From assembly GCA_019114465.1 (NCBI GenBank), contig DXFM01000027.1:79445-143444 (forward strand): a stretch of DNA of 64,000 nucleotides, in the 5' to 3' direction. The number at the start of each line of letters is the position of its first letter. Within the stretch, counting starts at the first letter, position 1. The translations under genes were made by a program, and so were the position numbers. Below are positions 1,880 through 52,996 of the stretch, piece by piece. Below the pieces are notes generated by a model. It saw only the letters and a program-made list of their open reading frames with translations. It searched no databases and was not told the origin of the DNA. Origin of the DNA: Candidatus Lachnoclostridium avicola. Its GTDB lineage: Bacteria > Bacillota > Clostridia > Lachnospirales > Lachnospiraceae.

Positions 1880-2043
1880 GTATTAGAAAATTTTTCATCC
1901 ATGAGTTATAATGCAGGTAACCACCAAGGTACCTGCATTTTGTGCGATACGCCCGGAAAACGGCCGCCATGCTTGCATGAGCGGACATTTGCCGGGCAAC
2001 GGACAGCGAACAGCTCTGCTGTGAGCTGCCCGTGGTATCGCGA

Positions 2044-2076
2044 ATCGGATAGGGAAAGGGACTTTCCCTATCCGAT
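2044..2076. repeat. Perfect 15-bp inverted repeat ATCGGATAGGGAAAG-gga-CTTTCCCTATCCGAT
   Basis: Arms 2044-2058 and 2062-2076, 3-nt loop. Confidence 0.9.
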
Positions 2077-2150: not shown

Positions 2151-3275
2151 ATGGCATATTTGGGAGAAGACATTAAAAAACTGGGCTTCGGCCTGATGCG
2201 GCTTCCGCAGAAGGAAGAGGGAGTCATTGATGTGGAGCAGGTGAAGGAGATGGTGGATCTGTTTCTGGACGCCGGCTTTACCTATTTTGACACGGCCTGG
2301 GCCTACGCCGGCAGCGAGGACGCCATCCGTCAGGCTCTGGTGGAGAGGTATCCCAGAGAGAAATTCCAGCTGGCCACAAAGAATGCAGCCTGGATCAAGT
2401 GCAGCACCAGAGAGGAGGCCATCGCTCAGTTTGACACTTCCCTGAAGCAGACAGGAGCTGGGTATTTTGATTTCTATCTTCTTCACAACCTGGGCGAGAG
2501 CCGCACGAAATATTTTGATGATTTTGATATGTGGAGCTGGGTACAGGAGAAGAAAAAAGAAGGCCTGATCCGCCATGTGGGATTTTCTTTCCACTCCACG
2601 CCGGAGGAGCTGGACGCAATTCTCACCGCCCATCCGGAGATGGAGTTTGTTCAGCTGCAGATCAACTACGCGGACTGGGAGAACCCGGCCGTTCAGTCCA
2701 GAGGCTGCTATGAGGTGGCCAGAAAGCACGGCAAGCCGGTGATTATTATGGAGCCGGTCAAGGGCGGTATGCTTGCAACCCCTCCGCAGCCGGTACTGGA
2801 CATTTTAAAGGGAGAGGAGCCGGAGGCATCTGCGGCGTCTTGGGCCATCCGCTTTGCTGCCAGCCTGGATGGAGTGATTACTGTGCTCTCCGGCATGAGC
2901 AATGTGGAGCAGATGAAGGACAATCTCTCCTTCATGAAGGATTTTAACGGTCTGTCAGAGAAGGAGCGGGAGACTCTGGATCAGGCCCAGAAGGCCCTGG
3001 CAAAGATTCCGCTGATCCCCTGCACCAACTGCAACTACTGCGCGAAGGTATGCCCGGAAAACATCGGTATTTCCGGTTCCTTTACGGCTATGAATTATCT
3101 GACCCTGTACGGAGATATGGGGGCGGCCAAACATCAGGAGAACTGGCTGGTAGGCGGACATGGAAAGAAACAGGCCAATCAGTGCATCAAGTGCGGAAGG
3201 TGTGAGAAAGCCTGCCCGCAGCACATCGCCATCCGCAGGGAACTGGAGAAAGTGAGCAGCGAGCTGCTGAGATAA
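2151..3275 (+). CDS. Aldo/keto reductase with C-terminal 4Fe-4S domain
   Basis: LGFGLMRLPQ N-terminus; CTNCNYCAKVCPENI and CIKCGRCEKACPQHI ferredoxin motifs; ATG at 2151 chosen over the upstream ORF start. Confidence 0.92.
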   Translation: MAYLGEDIKKLGFGLMRLPQKEEGVIDVEQVKEMVDLFLDAGFTYFDTAWAYAGSEDAIRQALVERYPREKFQLATKNAAWIKCSTREEAIAQFDTSLKQTGAGYFDFYLLHNLGESRTKYFDDFDMWSWVQEKKKEGLIRHVGFSFHSTPEELDAILTAHPEMEFVQLQINYADWENPAVQSRGCYEVARKHGKPVIIMEPVKGGMLATPPQPVLDILKGEEPEASAASWAIRFAASLDGVITVLSGMSNVEQMKDNLSFMKDFNGLSEKERETLDQAQKALAKIPLIPCTNCNYCAKVCPENIGISGSFTAMNYLTLYGDMGAAKHQENWLVGGHGKKQANQCIKCGRCEKACPQHIAIRRELEKVSSELLR

Positions 3276-14837: not shown

Positions 14838-14985
14838 TCAATACAGAACGTCGAGTGCCGGCACGCCGGCAGCGGGAGACCCAATTTTCAGGGGTGAATT
14901 CACAGATGTGATAGAGAACCTTCTTTCTCGAACCCGTCAGCTAATTCCGTAGACATGGAAGGATTCCGTATGAGCGAAATACGTT
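14838..14985 (+). ncRNA. ydaO/yuaA-like (cyclic di-AMP) riboswitch
   Basis: Ordered motifs: CCGGCAGCGGGAGACCCAATTTTCAGGGGTGAATTC ... CTCGAACCCGTCAGCTAATTCCGTAGACATGGAAGGA, followed by a terminator and an osmolyte ABC transporter. Confidence 0.8.
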
Positions 14986-32827: not shown

Positions 32828-34159
32828 TTATTCCTCCGCCGGGGCCGGCTTTAATTTTACGACAGCCTCCTCCACCTGGTGATCCTCGATGAGATTGATC
32901 TGGATGGTCATCTTCGGATGCTCCGCCAGAATGTTCTGGGGACCGTCCTCCGGCACCGTCCCCAGCAGGTTGAAGACCAGGCCGGTGAAGGTGTCGCAGT
33001 CCTCGTCGTCCAAGGACAGGCCGGTGGCGTCCTCAAAATCCCGGAGAGACACATTGCCGTGGACGGCGAAGACTCCGTCCTCCAGCTTTTCCACGGTGGG
33101 ATCCGGCTCGGAGGCAGTCTCCCCGGAGGATGTCAGGCTGCCCACCAGCTCCTCCACCAGGTCGTGGAGGGTGACGATGCCGGCGATGCCGCCGTACTCG
33201 TCCAGGACAATGGCCATGGAATTGTGGCTCTGCCTCATGTTGCGGAACAGCACGTCGGCCTTTAAGGTCTCCGGCACAAAGTAGGCGGGCTGTACGGCGT
33301 GGGCCAGGACGTTCTCCCGGCTCTTATCCTTCAGGCGGAAGTAATCCTTCGCGTTGAAGACGCCCACAATGTGGTCCGCAGAGCCCTCGCAAACCGGGTA
33401 CAGAGTGTGGCGGCTGTCGTGGATGGTGGCATCCCACTCATCCATGGAGTCCTCCATCCAGAGAAACAGCACGTCGGTCCGGTGGGTGCCGATCTCCCCG
33501 GCGGTCAGATCGTCAAATTCAAATACGTTCTGGATAAATTCCTTCTCCTCCCGGTCGATGGCCCCGTTCTCACTTCCCGCGTCCACCATCAGCCGGATCT
33601 CCTCCTCGCTCACCTGATCGTCTGCCTCGTTGGGGTCGATGCCTATGAGCCGGAGCACCGTGTTGGTGGAGAAGGACAGGAACCACACGATGGGGGCAAA
33701 CAGGGTGGAGATAAAACTGATCAGTCCGGAAATCCCCAGAGCCAGCTGCTCAGACTTCTTCATGGCGATCCGCTTGGGCACCAGCTCTCCGAAAATCAGG
33801 GTGAAGTAGGAGAGGATGAAGGTGATCAGCACCACGGCGATGGTGTTTAAGGTGCTGGCGGGGATGGGGACGCCCAGGCCGGACAGCCATTCCACCAGAC
33901 TGTCGGAAAAGTTGTCGGCGGCGAAGGCACTGCCCAGAAATCCGGACAGGGTGATGGCCACCTGGATGGTGGCCAGGAACTTGGCCGGGCGGCTGGTGAG
34001 CTTGCTCAGCCGTTTGGCTTTTTTGTTGCCCTGGGAAGCCATTTTGGCCAGCTTCGCGTCGTTGATGGAGAGGACCGCGATCTCAGCGCTGGCAAAGACA
34101 GCGTTCAGCGCGATCAAAACAACCTGTATCAGCAATAGAAATCCAACAGAATCTTTCAA
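32828..34159 (-). CDS. CorC/CNNM (HlyC/CorC, DUF21 + CBS) membrane protein
   Basis: DUF21 N-terminus AEIAVLSINDAKLAKMASQGNKKAKRLSKL...; CBS pair; MAIVLDEYGGIAGIVTLHDLVEELVG. Confidence 0.93.
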   Translation of the reverse strand: MKDSVGFLLLIQVVLIALNAVFASAEIAVLSINDAKLAKMASQGNKKAKRLSKLTSRPAKFLATIQVAITLSGFLGSAFAADNFSDSLVEWLSGLGVPIPASTLNTIAVVLITFILSYFTLIFGELVPKRIAMKKSEQLALGISGLISFISTLFAPIVWFLSFSTNTVLRLIGIDPNEADDQVSEEEIRLMVDAGSENGAIDREEKEFIQNVFEFDDLTAGEIGTHRTDVLFLWMEDSMDEWDATIHDSRHTLYPVCEGSADHIVGVFNAKDYFRLKDKSRENVLAHAVQPAYFVPETLKADVLFRNMRQSHNSMAIVLDEYGGIAGIVTLHDLVEELVGSLTSSGETASEPDPTVEKLEDGVFAVHGNVSLRDFEDATGLSLDDEDCDTFTGLVFNLLGTVPEDGPQNILAEHPKMTIQINLIEDHQVEEAVVKLKPAPAEE

Positions 34160-34225
34160 TGTTATACAACCTCTTTCTTAATATTCATAGTATTGGTCTT
34201 TTTCGGTAAATGTGTGCGGCAGACT

Positions 34226-34287
34226 AAAAAAGCATAAGACGAAACCCGTGTGCCGGATCAGAGCCCACAGGTTATGTCTTATGCTTT
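34226..34287 (-). terminator. Intrinsic terminator in the CorC/CNNM leader
   Basis: Minus strand AAAGCATAAGAC (34287-34276) ... GTCTTATGCTTT (34240-34229), U-run to 34226; perfect 12-bp outer stem. Confidence 0.85.
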
Positions 34288-34352
34288 GTATTTAAAAAAA
34301 CGAACATGTTTTTATCTCGTTCAGGGTCTGCGTCGCTGTCTACGGCGTCCAT
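34272..34352 (-). CDS. Acidic/proline leader peptide MDAVDSDADPERDKNMFVFLNTKHKT
   Basis: AGGAGG at 34370-34365, 12-nt spacer, 26 codons; stop lies inside the terminator hairpin; within the promoter-to-corC leader. Confidence 0.65.
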   Translation of the reverse strand: MDAVDSDADPERDKNMFVFLNTKHKT

Positions 34353-34393
34353 TATGTATACTGGCCTCCTTGAAATATTGTAATATGAGAAGA

Positions 34394-34422
34394 ATTATAG
34401 GCAGAAACAGGAGTTTTGTCAA
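34394..34422 (-). promoter_or_regulatory. Consensus sigma-A promoter for the CorC/CNNM leader
   Basis: Minus strand TTGACA (34422-34417) - 17 nt - TATAAT (34399-34394). Confidence 0.85.
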
Positions 34423-34459: not shown

Positions 34460-34487
34460 TTGACAACCCCAAAAAAAACTGTATAAT
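34460..34487 (+). promoter_or_regulatory. Promoter of the PatB-type lyase gene
   Basis: TTGACA - 16 nt - TATAAT. Confidence 0.8.
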
Positions 34488-34547: not shown

Positions 34548-35759
34548 ATGAAGTACGATTTCACAAGTATTATGGACCGGAGAGGGAAGGACGCCATTGC
34601 TGTGGACGGCCTTGGAAAGAATCCCGGATTTGCTCCGGAGCCTCCGAAGGAAGGCTATGACATCATTCCCATGTGGGTGGCGGATATGAACTTCCCCACA
34701 GTGCCCACCATTCCCGAGGCGATTATCGAGAGAGCGAAGCATCCGGCATATGGATATTTCTCCGCAACTGACGAGTACTACAATTCCATCATCAAATGGC
34801 ATGAGACGAGAAACGGCGTGACCGGCCTGACCAAAGAGTGCATCGGCTATGAGAACGGCGTTCTGGGCGGCGTCATCAGTGCGCTGAACGTATTCTGCTC
34901 CAAAGGCGACAAGGTTCTCCTTCACACCCCCACCTATATCGGATTTACCAACTGCATGACCAACAACGGCTACGACATGGTGCTCAGCCCCTTAAAGAAG
35001 GATGAGAACGGCGTATGGCGCATGGACTTCGAGGATATGGAAGAGAAGTTAAAGACCCAGAACATCCACGCGGCAGTGTTCTGCTCTCCCCACAACCCCT
35101 GCGGCCGTGTATGGGAGAAGTGGGAGATCGAGAAGGCCATGGAGCTCTATAAGAAATACGACGTGTTCGTAGTTTCTGACGAGATCTGGTCCGACATTAT
35201 CTTAAACGGCCACAAGCACATCCCCACCCAGTCTGTGAGCGAGGATGCCCGCATGCGCACCGTGGCAGTGTACGCTCCCAGCAAGACCTTCAACCTGGCC
35301 GGACTGGTGGGAAGCTACCATATTATTTACAACAAGTGGATCCGTGACAGGGTACTGAAAGAGTCCTCTCTGCCCCACTACAACGACATGAACGTGCTGA
35401 GCATGCACGCCCTCATCGGCGCCTACAAGCCGGAAGGCTATGAGTGGGTGGATGAGCTGCTTCAGGTTCTCAGCGAGAACGTAAACTACGCCTGCGATTA
35501 TATCAAGGAGCATTTTGACGGAGTGGAAGTTTCCAAGCCTGAGGGAACCTACATGCTGTTCTTAGACTGCACCAAGTGGTGCGAGAAGCACGGCAAGACC
35601 ATCGCCGACGTGGAGAAGGCCGGCTGGGACGTGGGTGTTGCATGGCAGGACGGCCGGATGTTCCACGGTCCGTGCTCCATCCGTATGAACCTGGCCCTTC
35701 CTCTTTCCAGAGTGAAGGAAGCTTTCGAGCGCCTGAGCAAGTACGTATTCTGCGACTGA
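34548..35759 (+). CDS. PatB/MalY family PLP-dependent C-S lyase/aminotransferase
   Basis: MWVADMNFPTVPTI; FCSPHNPCGRVW; YAPSKTFNLAGL (PLP lysine). Confidence 0.93.
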   Translation: MKYDFTSIMDRRGKDAIAVDGLGKNPGFAPEPPKEGYDIIPMWVADMNFPTVPTIPEAIIERAKHPAYGYFSATDEYYNSIIKWHETRNGVTGLTKECIGYENGVLGGVISALNVFCSKGDKVLLHTPTYIGFTNCMTNNGYDMVLSPLKKDENGVWRMDFEDMEEKLKTQNIHAAVFCSPHNPCGRVWEKWEIEKAMELYKKYDVFVVSDEIWSDIILNGHKHIPTQSVSEDARMRTVAVYAPSKTFNLAGLVGSYHIIYNKWIRDRVLKESSLPHYNDMNVLSMHALIGAYKPEGYEWVDELLQVLSENVNYACDYIKEHFDGVEVSKPEGTYMLFLDCTKWCEKHGKTIADVEKAGWDVGVAWQDGRMFHGPCSIRMNLALPLSRVKEAFERLSKYVFCD

Positions 35760-52498: not shown

Positions 52499-52572
52499 CG
52501 AGGCGTGGCTCAGCTTGGTAGAGCGCTGCGTTCGGGACGCAGAGGTCGCAAGTTCAAATCTTGTCGCCTCGA
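52499..52572 (+). tRNA. tRNA-Pro (CGG)
   Basis: Cloverleaf: acceptor CGAGGCG/CGCCTCG, anticodon loop TTCGGGA, T-loop TTCAAAT. Confidence 0.95.
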
Positions 52573-52579
52573 TGATACC

Positions 52580-52651
52580 GGCCTATTGGTCAAGCGGTCA
52601 AGACGCCGCCCTCTCACGGCGGAAACCCGGGTTCGATTCCCGGATAGGTCA
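52580..52651 (+). tRNA. tRNA-Glu (CTC)
   Basis: Anticodon loop CTCTCAC in CCGCC/GGCGG stem; T-loop GTTCGATTC. Confidence 0.95.
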
Positions 52652-52690
52652 TGAAATGCTTTGGAAGGTTCCAAGGCATTTTTTAAGCAG

Positions 52691-52763
52691 GCTACTGTGG
52701 CTCAGTTGGTAGAGCAGCTGATTCGTAATCAGCAGGTCAGGGGTTCGAGTCCCCTCAGTAGCT
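52691..52763 (+). tRNA. tRNA-Thr (CGT)
   Basis: Acceptor GCTACTG/CAGTAGC; anticodon loop TTCGTAA. Confidence 0.95.
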
Positions 52764-52794
52764 TTTTTGATGGCGGTAAGCTGTCAAAAATTGT

Positions 52795-52868
52795 CGAGGC
52801 GTGGCTCAGCTTGGTAGAGCGCTGCGTTCGGGACGCAGAGGTCGCAAGTTCAAATCTTGTCGCCTCGA
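52795..52868 (+). tRNA. tRNA-Pro (CGG), identical second copy
   Basis: Same sequence as 52499-52572. Confidence 0.95.
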
Positions 52869-52874
52869 TGATCC

Positions 52875-52946
52875 GGCCTATTGGTCAAGCGGTCAAGACG
52901 CCGCCCTCTCACGGCGGAAACCCGGGTTCGATTCCCGGATAGGTCA
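52875..52946 (+). tRNA. tRNA-Glu (CTC), identical second copy
   Basis: Same sequence as 52580-52651. Confidence 0.95.
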
Positions 52947-52961
52947 TATTATAGTGAGGGA

Positions 52962-52996
52962 AAGGCACTGTCTGGTGAGGACAGTGCCTTTTTTGC
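52962..52996 (+). terminator. Terminator of the tRNA cluster
   Basis: AAAGGCACTGTC-tggtga-GGACAGTGCCTTTTTT. Confidence 0.85.

Follow-up and report, generated by a model that had tools for sequence, protein, structure and literature searches.

Among described systems, the MgtL leader of mgtA in Escherichia coli and Salmonella comes closest to the element reported here. It is a short open reading frame (ORF) led by a Shine-Dalgarno (SD) sequence, with an acidic/proline motif at residues 2-5 and a Mg2+ transport gene downstream of it (PMC11282234). In E. coli, ribosomes drop off at this motif (EPDP) at low Mg2+; acidic motifs are effective only within approximately the first 30 residues, and the drop-off is counteracted by EttA (PMC11282234). 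The stability of the ribosome on the motif serves as the Mg2+ sensor, the terminator is Rho-dependent and gated by an RNA rearrangement, and the importer is on at low Mg2+. Within the CorC family, an N-terminal destabilizing sequence has been proposed to raise Salmonella CorC at high Mg2+, and even for Salmonella the regulation of mgpA and corC is described as unclear (PMC12421838). In Firmicutes, the M-box (ykoK, RF00380) places Mg2+ transport genes under Mg2+ control by transcription termination; it is a structured aptamer without an ORF and represses importers. The M-box explains import, and excess-Mg2+ sensing and the control of efflux are an open question in Firmicutes. In pyrBI, the leader ORF extends into an intrinsic terminator, whose hairpin is blocked by a ribosome near the polymerase, and UTP is sensed by polymerase pausing.

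Here we describe a leader upstream of a CNNM/CorC-family gene in a 64,000-nucleotide stretch of Candidatus Lachnoclostridium avicola DNA (hereafter the window). Like MgtL, it is a short SD-led ORF of the 5' leader whose first 30 residues include an acidic/proline motif; here too, ribosome stability on the motif is proposed as the sensor. It departs from MgtL in having an intrinsic terminator that overlaps the ORF, exporter-type targets and a predicted sign opposite to that of MgtL; we do not claim homology. Assignment to the mgtL element proper was rejected, the terminator being intrinsic and the targets being CNNM proteins, a P2-type ATPase and others rather than the mgtA importer. With the N-terminal IRD sequence of E. 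coli/Salmonella CorC (YbeX) and the YoaL leader of mgpA (yoaE), the element shares a proposed higher CorC-family expression at high Mg2+ (PMC12421838). The enterobacterial systems differ in that the destabilizing sequence lies within the protein, or the leader is coupled by translation, and they are confined to enterobacteria, without terminator attenuation and without a regulon. As in pyrBI-type attenuators, the ORF is open up to or through the terminator, but the predicted variable is ribosome survival on acidic codons, not UTP.

No M-box was found in the window or in its own genome (assembly 86% complete). The window and 18 related loci contained no Rfam family at gathering score (Rfam 15), and a search at the site with E up to 10 returned chance matches only. 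The open literature, which leaves out most subscription journals and preprints, yielded no paper on a leader of this kind in Clostridia. The ncRNA survey of the Breaker laboratory lists uORF candidates without mention of CorC, CBS or hemolysin genes (PMC8632094). Judged against the open literature and Rfam 15 only, the leader class is undescribed.

The leader locus in the window

The initial annotation had listed a promoter, an SD sequence, a short ORF, a terminator overlapping it and a CorC/CNNM gene on the minus strand, and each of these was found where it had been placed (Table 1). The SD spacing, remarked upon then as longer than ideal, is real, and is 12-13 nt in the same-genus relatives L004, L005, L007 and L009. 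Transcription would start at ~34387, with the RNA 5' end thus just 5' of the leader SD.

Table 1. Coordinates of the leader locus and of neighboring features in the window
Feature	Position	Strand	Basis
Promoter TTGACA-17-TATAAT, sigma-70-type	34394..34422	-	12/12 consensus matches
Leader Shine-Dalgarno AGGAGG	34365..34370	-	12 nt before ATG at 34352
Leader ORF, 26 aa, MDAVDSDADPERDKNMFVFLNTKHKT	34272..34352	-	sequence and peptide-level conservation
Acidic/proline segment (putative destabilizing), codons 2-11 = DAVDSDADPE	34320..34349	-	sequence and position profile, 93 distinct leaders
Intrinsic terminator hairpin	34229..34287	-	-31.3 kcal/mol, z = -7.5; family covariation
Outer 12-bp 5' arm of the hairpin, AAAGCAUAAGAC	34276..34287	-	built from last leader codons AAG CAU AAG AC
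Terminator U-run (U6)	34226..34231	-	sequence
CNNM/CorC-family membrane protein gene, 443 aa, TTG start	32828..34159	-	domains
Second perfect TTGACA-TATAAT promoter, divergent	34460..34487	+	
MalY/PatB-like aminotransferase gene	34548..35759	+	
c-di-AMP (ydaO) riboswitch	14839..14966	+	78.8 bits
Five clustered tRNA genes, followed by a terminator-like hairpin	52499..52996	+	

The stability of the hairpin was matched by none of 200 shuffles, and its inner stem lies 3' of the leader stop codon. Refolding without the first 15 nt, a deletion that mimics the region occupied by a terminating ribosome and removes the outer 5' arm, left an inner stem of -13.3 kcal/mol apart from the U-run. A pairing between GCAGAC in the leader and GUCUGC past the U-run, seen in the full-leader fold, was dismissed as incidental since it is missing in L004.

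The protein encoded downstream contains a CNNM transmembrane domain (PF01595, 5.9e-52), a CBS pair (PF00571) and a CorC_HlyC domain (PF03471), and its nearest solved relative is 7m1u/7m1t of the CNNM/CorB family (E 1.5e-55). The best NCBIfam match is PaeA, a polyamine exporter of the same superfamily, at 215 bits and thus far below the cut-off of 500. Mg2+ efflux is the function of the CNNM relatives MpfA, TpCorC and archaeal CorB (PMC12421838, PMC8844918); in S. aureus and B. subtilis, MpfA-type proteins pump Mg2+ out of the cell (PMC8844918). By analogy, we consider the window protein a putative Mg2+ exporter-type gene product. A CNNM paralogue in the same genome (L002) has no leader-type hairpin and, as judged by eye, no such leader upstream.

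The divergent promoter lies ~40 nt from the leader promoter and drives the aminotransferase gene. Elsewhere in the window, the ydaO riboswitch stands immediately 5' of an OpuC-like glycine-betaine/choline ABC operon (from 14989), a case of osmolyte control in the same genome. The tRNA cluster is followed by a terminator-like hairpin with a weak score (19.9 bits) under the leader-hairpin model described below.

Recurrence and conservation of the leader

CNNM orthologues were gathered from relatives and from 80 named contigs, and ~108 CorC loci were read. At ~65 of these we identified a short SD-led ORF that begins with acidic and small residues and extends to a terminator hairpin. Their common design consists of an SD sequence, an ATG (sometimes GTG or TTG), an ORF of 14 to ~60 aa with an acidic start, and a hairpin with a U-run. 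Examples of the peptides are MDAGDSDADPERDKN (L004), MDDCDSDTNPEHNN (L009), MDDSSDGDTAAEHRD (L013), METDPDGSPSLSQ (L071), MEPDPDGSPVFVY (L061), MSDEESDSTGDHN (L078) and MDGAPDGSNPDNY (L116), and the starts found among relatives include MEPDPDGSP (L061) and METDPDGSP (L071). Named carriers include Emergencia timonensis, Anaerotignum propionicum, Mordavella massiliensis, Ruminococcus flavefaciens and Oribacterium; uncultured carriers fall in Blautia, Butyricicoccus, Gemmiger and Christensenella. Under one fixed rule, an acidic SD-led short ORF was present upstream of 32 of 78 CorC loci versus 18 of 447 other genes on the same contigs (Fisher p = 1.5e-17, a value that ignores relatedness among the loci). 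The acidic leader thus occurs at CorC genes more often than by chance and is not a local accident.

At the CNNM gene of two close relatives of the same genus (L008 and L010) the leader is missing, which counts against the attenuator model set out below; in these genomes a second CNNM gene bears the leader instead (L125, L123). Many leaders (L013, L017, L082, L115 and others) have the SD form AAGGANGTGA with the start codon 10-13 nt further on, and GAC is favored over GAT at leader starts (in the same four and others). In L159, leader and hairpin are intact and the CNNM gene behind them is reduced to 78 codons, by pseudogene formation or assembly error.

Among 93 distinct N-termini, Asp or Glu is found at residues 2-8 in 86, 65, 29, 44, 42, 31, and 35% of the cases and declines to 3-10% beyond residue 11, a profile that partly reflects the selection of leaders by acidity. 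Hydrophobic residues (at most 5%) and Lys/Arg (at most 3%) are scarce at residues 2-8, a feature that was no selection criterion, and residues 15-21 are 37-56% hydrophobic. The C-terminus is variable. Asp is the commonest residue and is swapped freely with Glu, Ser, Pro, Asn and Gly. Codons 2-10, compared in 35 disjoint pairs of related leaders, gave a pS of 0.37 and a pN of 0.16, that is, a pN/pS of 0.42 in frame compared with 1.09 and 0.98 in the other frames. The differences by codon position numbered 53, 49, and 84 for codons 2-10 versus 104, 100, and 121 for codons 13-18. As judged from these codon statistics, codons 2-10 are under purifying selection in the ORF frame only, and it is the peptide that is selected, rather than the nucleotide sequence.

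The 13-bp helix of the hairpin, aligned over 39 hairpins (alignment A2), has 94.2% of its cells paired and 12 of the 13 pairs changed on both sides. Its covariation score was 0.649 versus 0.370 +/- 0.018 in shuffled alignments (0/500), with slid controls at 0.12-0.22. A second, model-found hairpin set, which was fitted to the covariance model and includes some reverse-strand rows, was 95.9% paired with 10 of 13 pairs changed on both sides. The two conservation checks called for by the initial annotation thus came out in its favor: covariation of the hairpin is strong, and the contrary pattern, a hairpin that is kept beside an ORF that is not, was looked for and not seen, the acidic N-terminus being conserved as a peptide.

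Genes behind the element

The hairpin alone was turned into a covariance model (R1), with which we scanned 98 relatives first and 397 genomes of the family next. The model located ~59 distinct places. At ~43 of these, among them all matches better than E = 2.5e-4, an acidic leader ORF stands where one is expected; the remaining 16 resemble ordinary terminators. Most leader-positive places precede CNNM genes, either of the same clade as in the window (21) or of a second clade, 'SAYFSATETAFSSLNR', that is ~29% identical (8, plus two found by pattern). The others are followed by P-type ATPases nearest to Ca2+ P2A models, below cut-off (5), UppP (2; L132 and L158), YtvI-like permeases (2; L126 and L141, with a further one in L045 that is divergent to its CNNM gene), KtrB-KtrA (1; L172), an ABC transporter (1) and a GNAT-membrane protein (1), and two of the loci are truncated. 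None of the Mg2+ importers MgtE, CorA and P3B ATPase was found among the genes behind leader-positive places. Leaders at these other genes are of the same type, as in MDDADSDAARSYSNI (ATPase, L131), MDDADSDAAPEYKNK (UppP, L132), MEDADSDADRNSRKA (second CNNM clade, CNNM-B, L123) and MDSSEDNDGICDI (KtrB, L172). A pattern for the leader N-terminus matched 52 times in the 397 genomes versus ~9 for the reversed control; the 30 matches that were read are mostly chance ones inside coding sequence, and those followed by the leader-type hairpin precede CNNM or ATPase genes.

Based on this gene set, the element is predicted to control a regulon and not a single gene, as it also precedes other cation-transport genes and some envelope genes. 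A set that joins efflux-type proteins to a K+ importer is more in keeping with cation excess than with Mg2+ starvation. In B. subtilis, K+ influx is coupled to Mg2+ egress in an inverse K+/Mg2+ relation (PMC8844918), and the KtrAB K+ uptake system of L172 would, by analogy, agree with such a coupling.

L045 carries two back-to-back leaders (~1999-2046, minus strand; 2372-2422, plus strand), one for the CNNM gene and one for the divergent YtvI-like gene. In L174, the hairpin alone precedes a YtvI-like gene followed by DUF368. The element, or the hairpin alone in L174, is thus seen in front of undecaprenyl-phosphate related genes and YtvI-like permeases, where a link of cation excess to lipid-carrier recycling is conceivable.

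Predicted sign of the proposed switch and alternative readings

The distance from start codon to hairpin has a median of 69 nt (IQR 62-76), and 90 of 91 leaders have their stop codon at the hairpin or beyond it. Among 57 CorC-locus leaders, chosen by length and acidity only, a stop more than 10 nt before the hairpin occurs in none in frame 0, compared with 31 and 46 in frames 1 and 2; 46 stop within -10 to +35 of the hairpin start and the remainder run through the hairpin. With frame 0 open as far as the hairpin, every ribosome that makes it past the acidic codons would arrive there. In a search for antiterminators (n=91), the duplex between leader and 5' arm had a mean z of +0.12, with 6 of 91 below -1.64, and no conserved pairing beyond that of shuffles was found. 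A trp-like antiterminator is therefore absent, as the leader pairs with the 5' arm no more than shuffled leaders do. The trp-type attenuator was rejected as a class, with no antiterminator involving the 5' arm and no codons for one amino acid that matches the target pathway. With no conserved antiterminator and a stop at or past the hairpin, a completed leader should block termination and an early abort should permit it. This is the polarity that the initial annotation had proposed (full translation giving readthrough, abort giving termination), and it is supported by the anatomy and by the lack of a conserved competing structure. Occlusion by the ribosome would be the simplest mechanism; its geometry was computed, and its kinetics we infer.

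We regard it as fairly probable that the element is an attenuator in which a self-destabilizing nascent peptide serves as the Mg2+/cation sensor of an exporter-type CNNM gene. Transcription would begin ~35 nt 5' of a strong leader ORF whose first ten codons specify Asp, Glu, Pro, Ser, Ala and Gly, without hydrophobic or basic residues. A ribosome that passes the acidic codons would reach the 5' arm of the terminator close behind RNA polymerase, so that no hairpin forms and the CNNM gene is transcribed. Poorly stabilized ribosomes, at low Mg2+ or low total ribosome-stabilizing cation, would drop off in the acidic stretch, the hairpin would form and transcription would terminate. Exporter output would thereby rise with intracellular Mg2+ or cation, and one type of cassette would serve a small clostridial regulon of cation transporters. 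Drop-off at the acidic codons, its dependence on Mg2+ and the direction of the response are predictions, and Mg2+ is the presumed signal by analogy with MgtL-type ribosome destabilization. Given the literature on MgtL, CorC and MpfA, exporter expression that rises with well-stabilized ribosomes is the expected sign. Tight coupling between ribosome and polymerase is not assured in Firmicutes, and this counts against the attenuator model.

The signal may also be the total ribosome-stabilizing cation (Mg2+ and polyamines) or a translation factor. More broadly, the same attenuator could respond to polyamines, K+, an ABC-F factor (EttA-like), EF-P or a general translation slow-down, a reading that we consider unlikely, though of appreciable weight. 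Drop-off at acidic motifs is eased by EttA, which regulates mgtA via MgtL (PMC11282234), ABC-F homologues are encoded in the same genome (best 434 bits, below the EttA cut-off of 806.75), and the nearest named family of the window CNNM protein is a polyamine exporter. The UppP, YtvI-like, ABC transporter and GNAT-membrane targets lack an obvious link to Mg2+; they count against Mg2+ as the signal, and the first three speak for another one. However, ~34 of the 41 R1 matches with a leader and an identifiable target precede a CNNM or cation ATPase gene, which points to cation homeostasis. An inverted polarity, in which ribosome abort increases expression through Rho or an unseen RNA structure, has its precedent in enterobacterial MgtL (PMC11282234); it is very improbable here, given an intrinsic terminator that the ORF enters and the lack of any conserved competing structure, and its sign would be maladaptive with exporter targets.

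That the ORF lies fortuitously over a plain terminator could be argued from the similar leaderless hairpins at gene ends (16 of 59 model matches), but this is excluded by the in-frame codon conservation, the fixed distance from start to hairpin and the frame-specific openness; a functional acidic micro-protein is hard to reconcile with the variable C-terminus, which argues against a stable product. Together these two readings retain a very slight probability. With Asp as the commonest leader residue, a classical amino-acid attenuator that senses tRNA-Asp charging comes to mind, and we give it hardly any credence: Asp is exchanged freely for the five other residues named above, the alternative antiterminator that a stalled ribosome would require was not found, and none of the targets belongs to Asp metabolism.

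Returning to the cation-sensing attenuator, the same arrangement in front of ion transporters in dozens of gut Clostridia suggests that ribosome stability is used as a sensor of cation level. On balance we lean, by a little, towards an undescribed class of attenuators, widespread in Clostridia, in which an acidic leader and a conserved hairpin act with a sign opposite to that of MgtL. Its regulon (two CNNM families, a P2-type ATPase, KtrAB, UppP and YtvI) would be switched on when cations over-stabilize ribosomes, and the ribosome would act as the sensor of cation excess. The element is short, portable and testable, and the first four named carriers above are cultured. If the model is true, enterobacteria and Clostridia have independently put ribosome survival on acidic codons to regulatory use, the two signs being opposite and the clostridial version serving a multi-gene regulon. 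The leader would then also be a guide to unknown transporters, and the genes behind it would be candidate cation-homeostasis genes.
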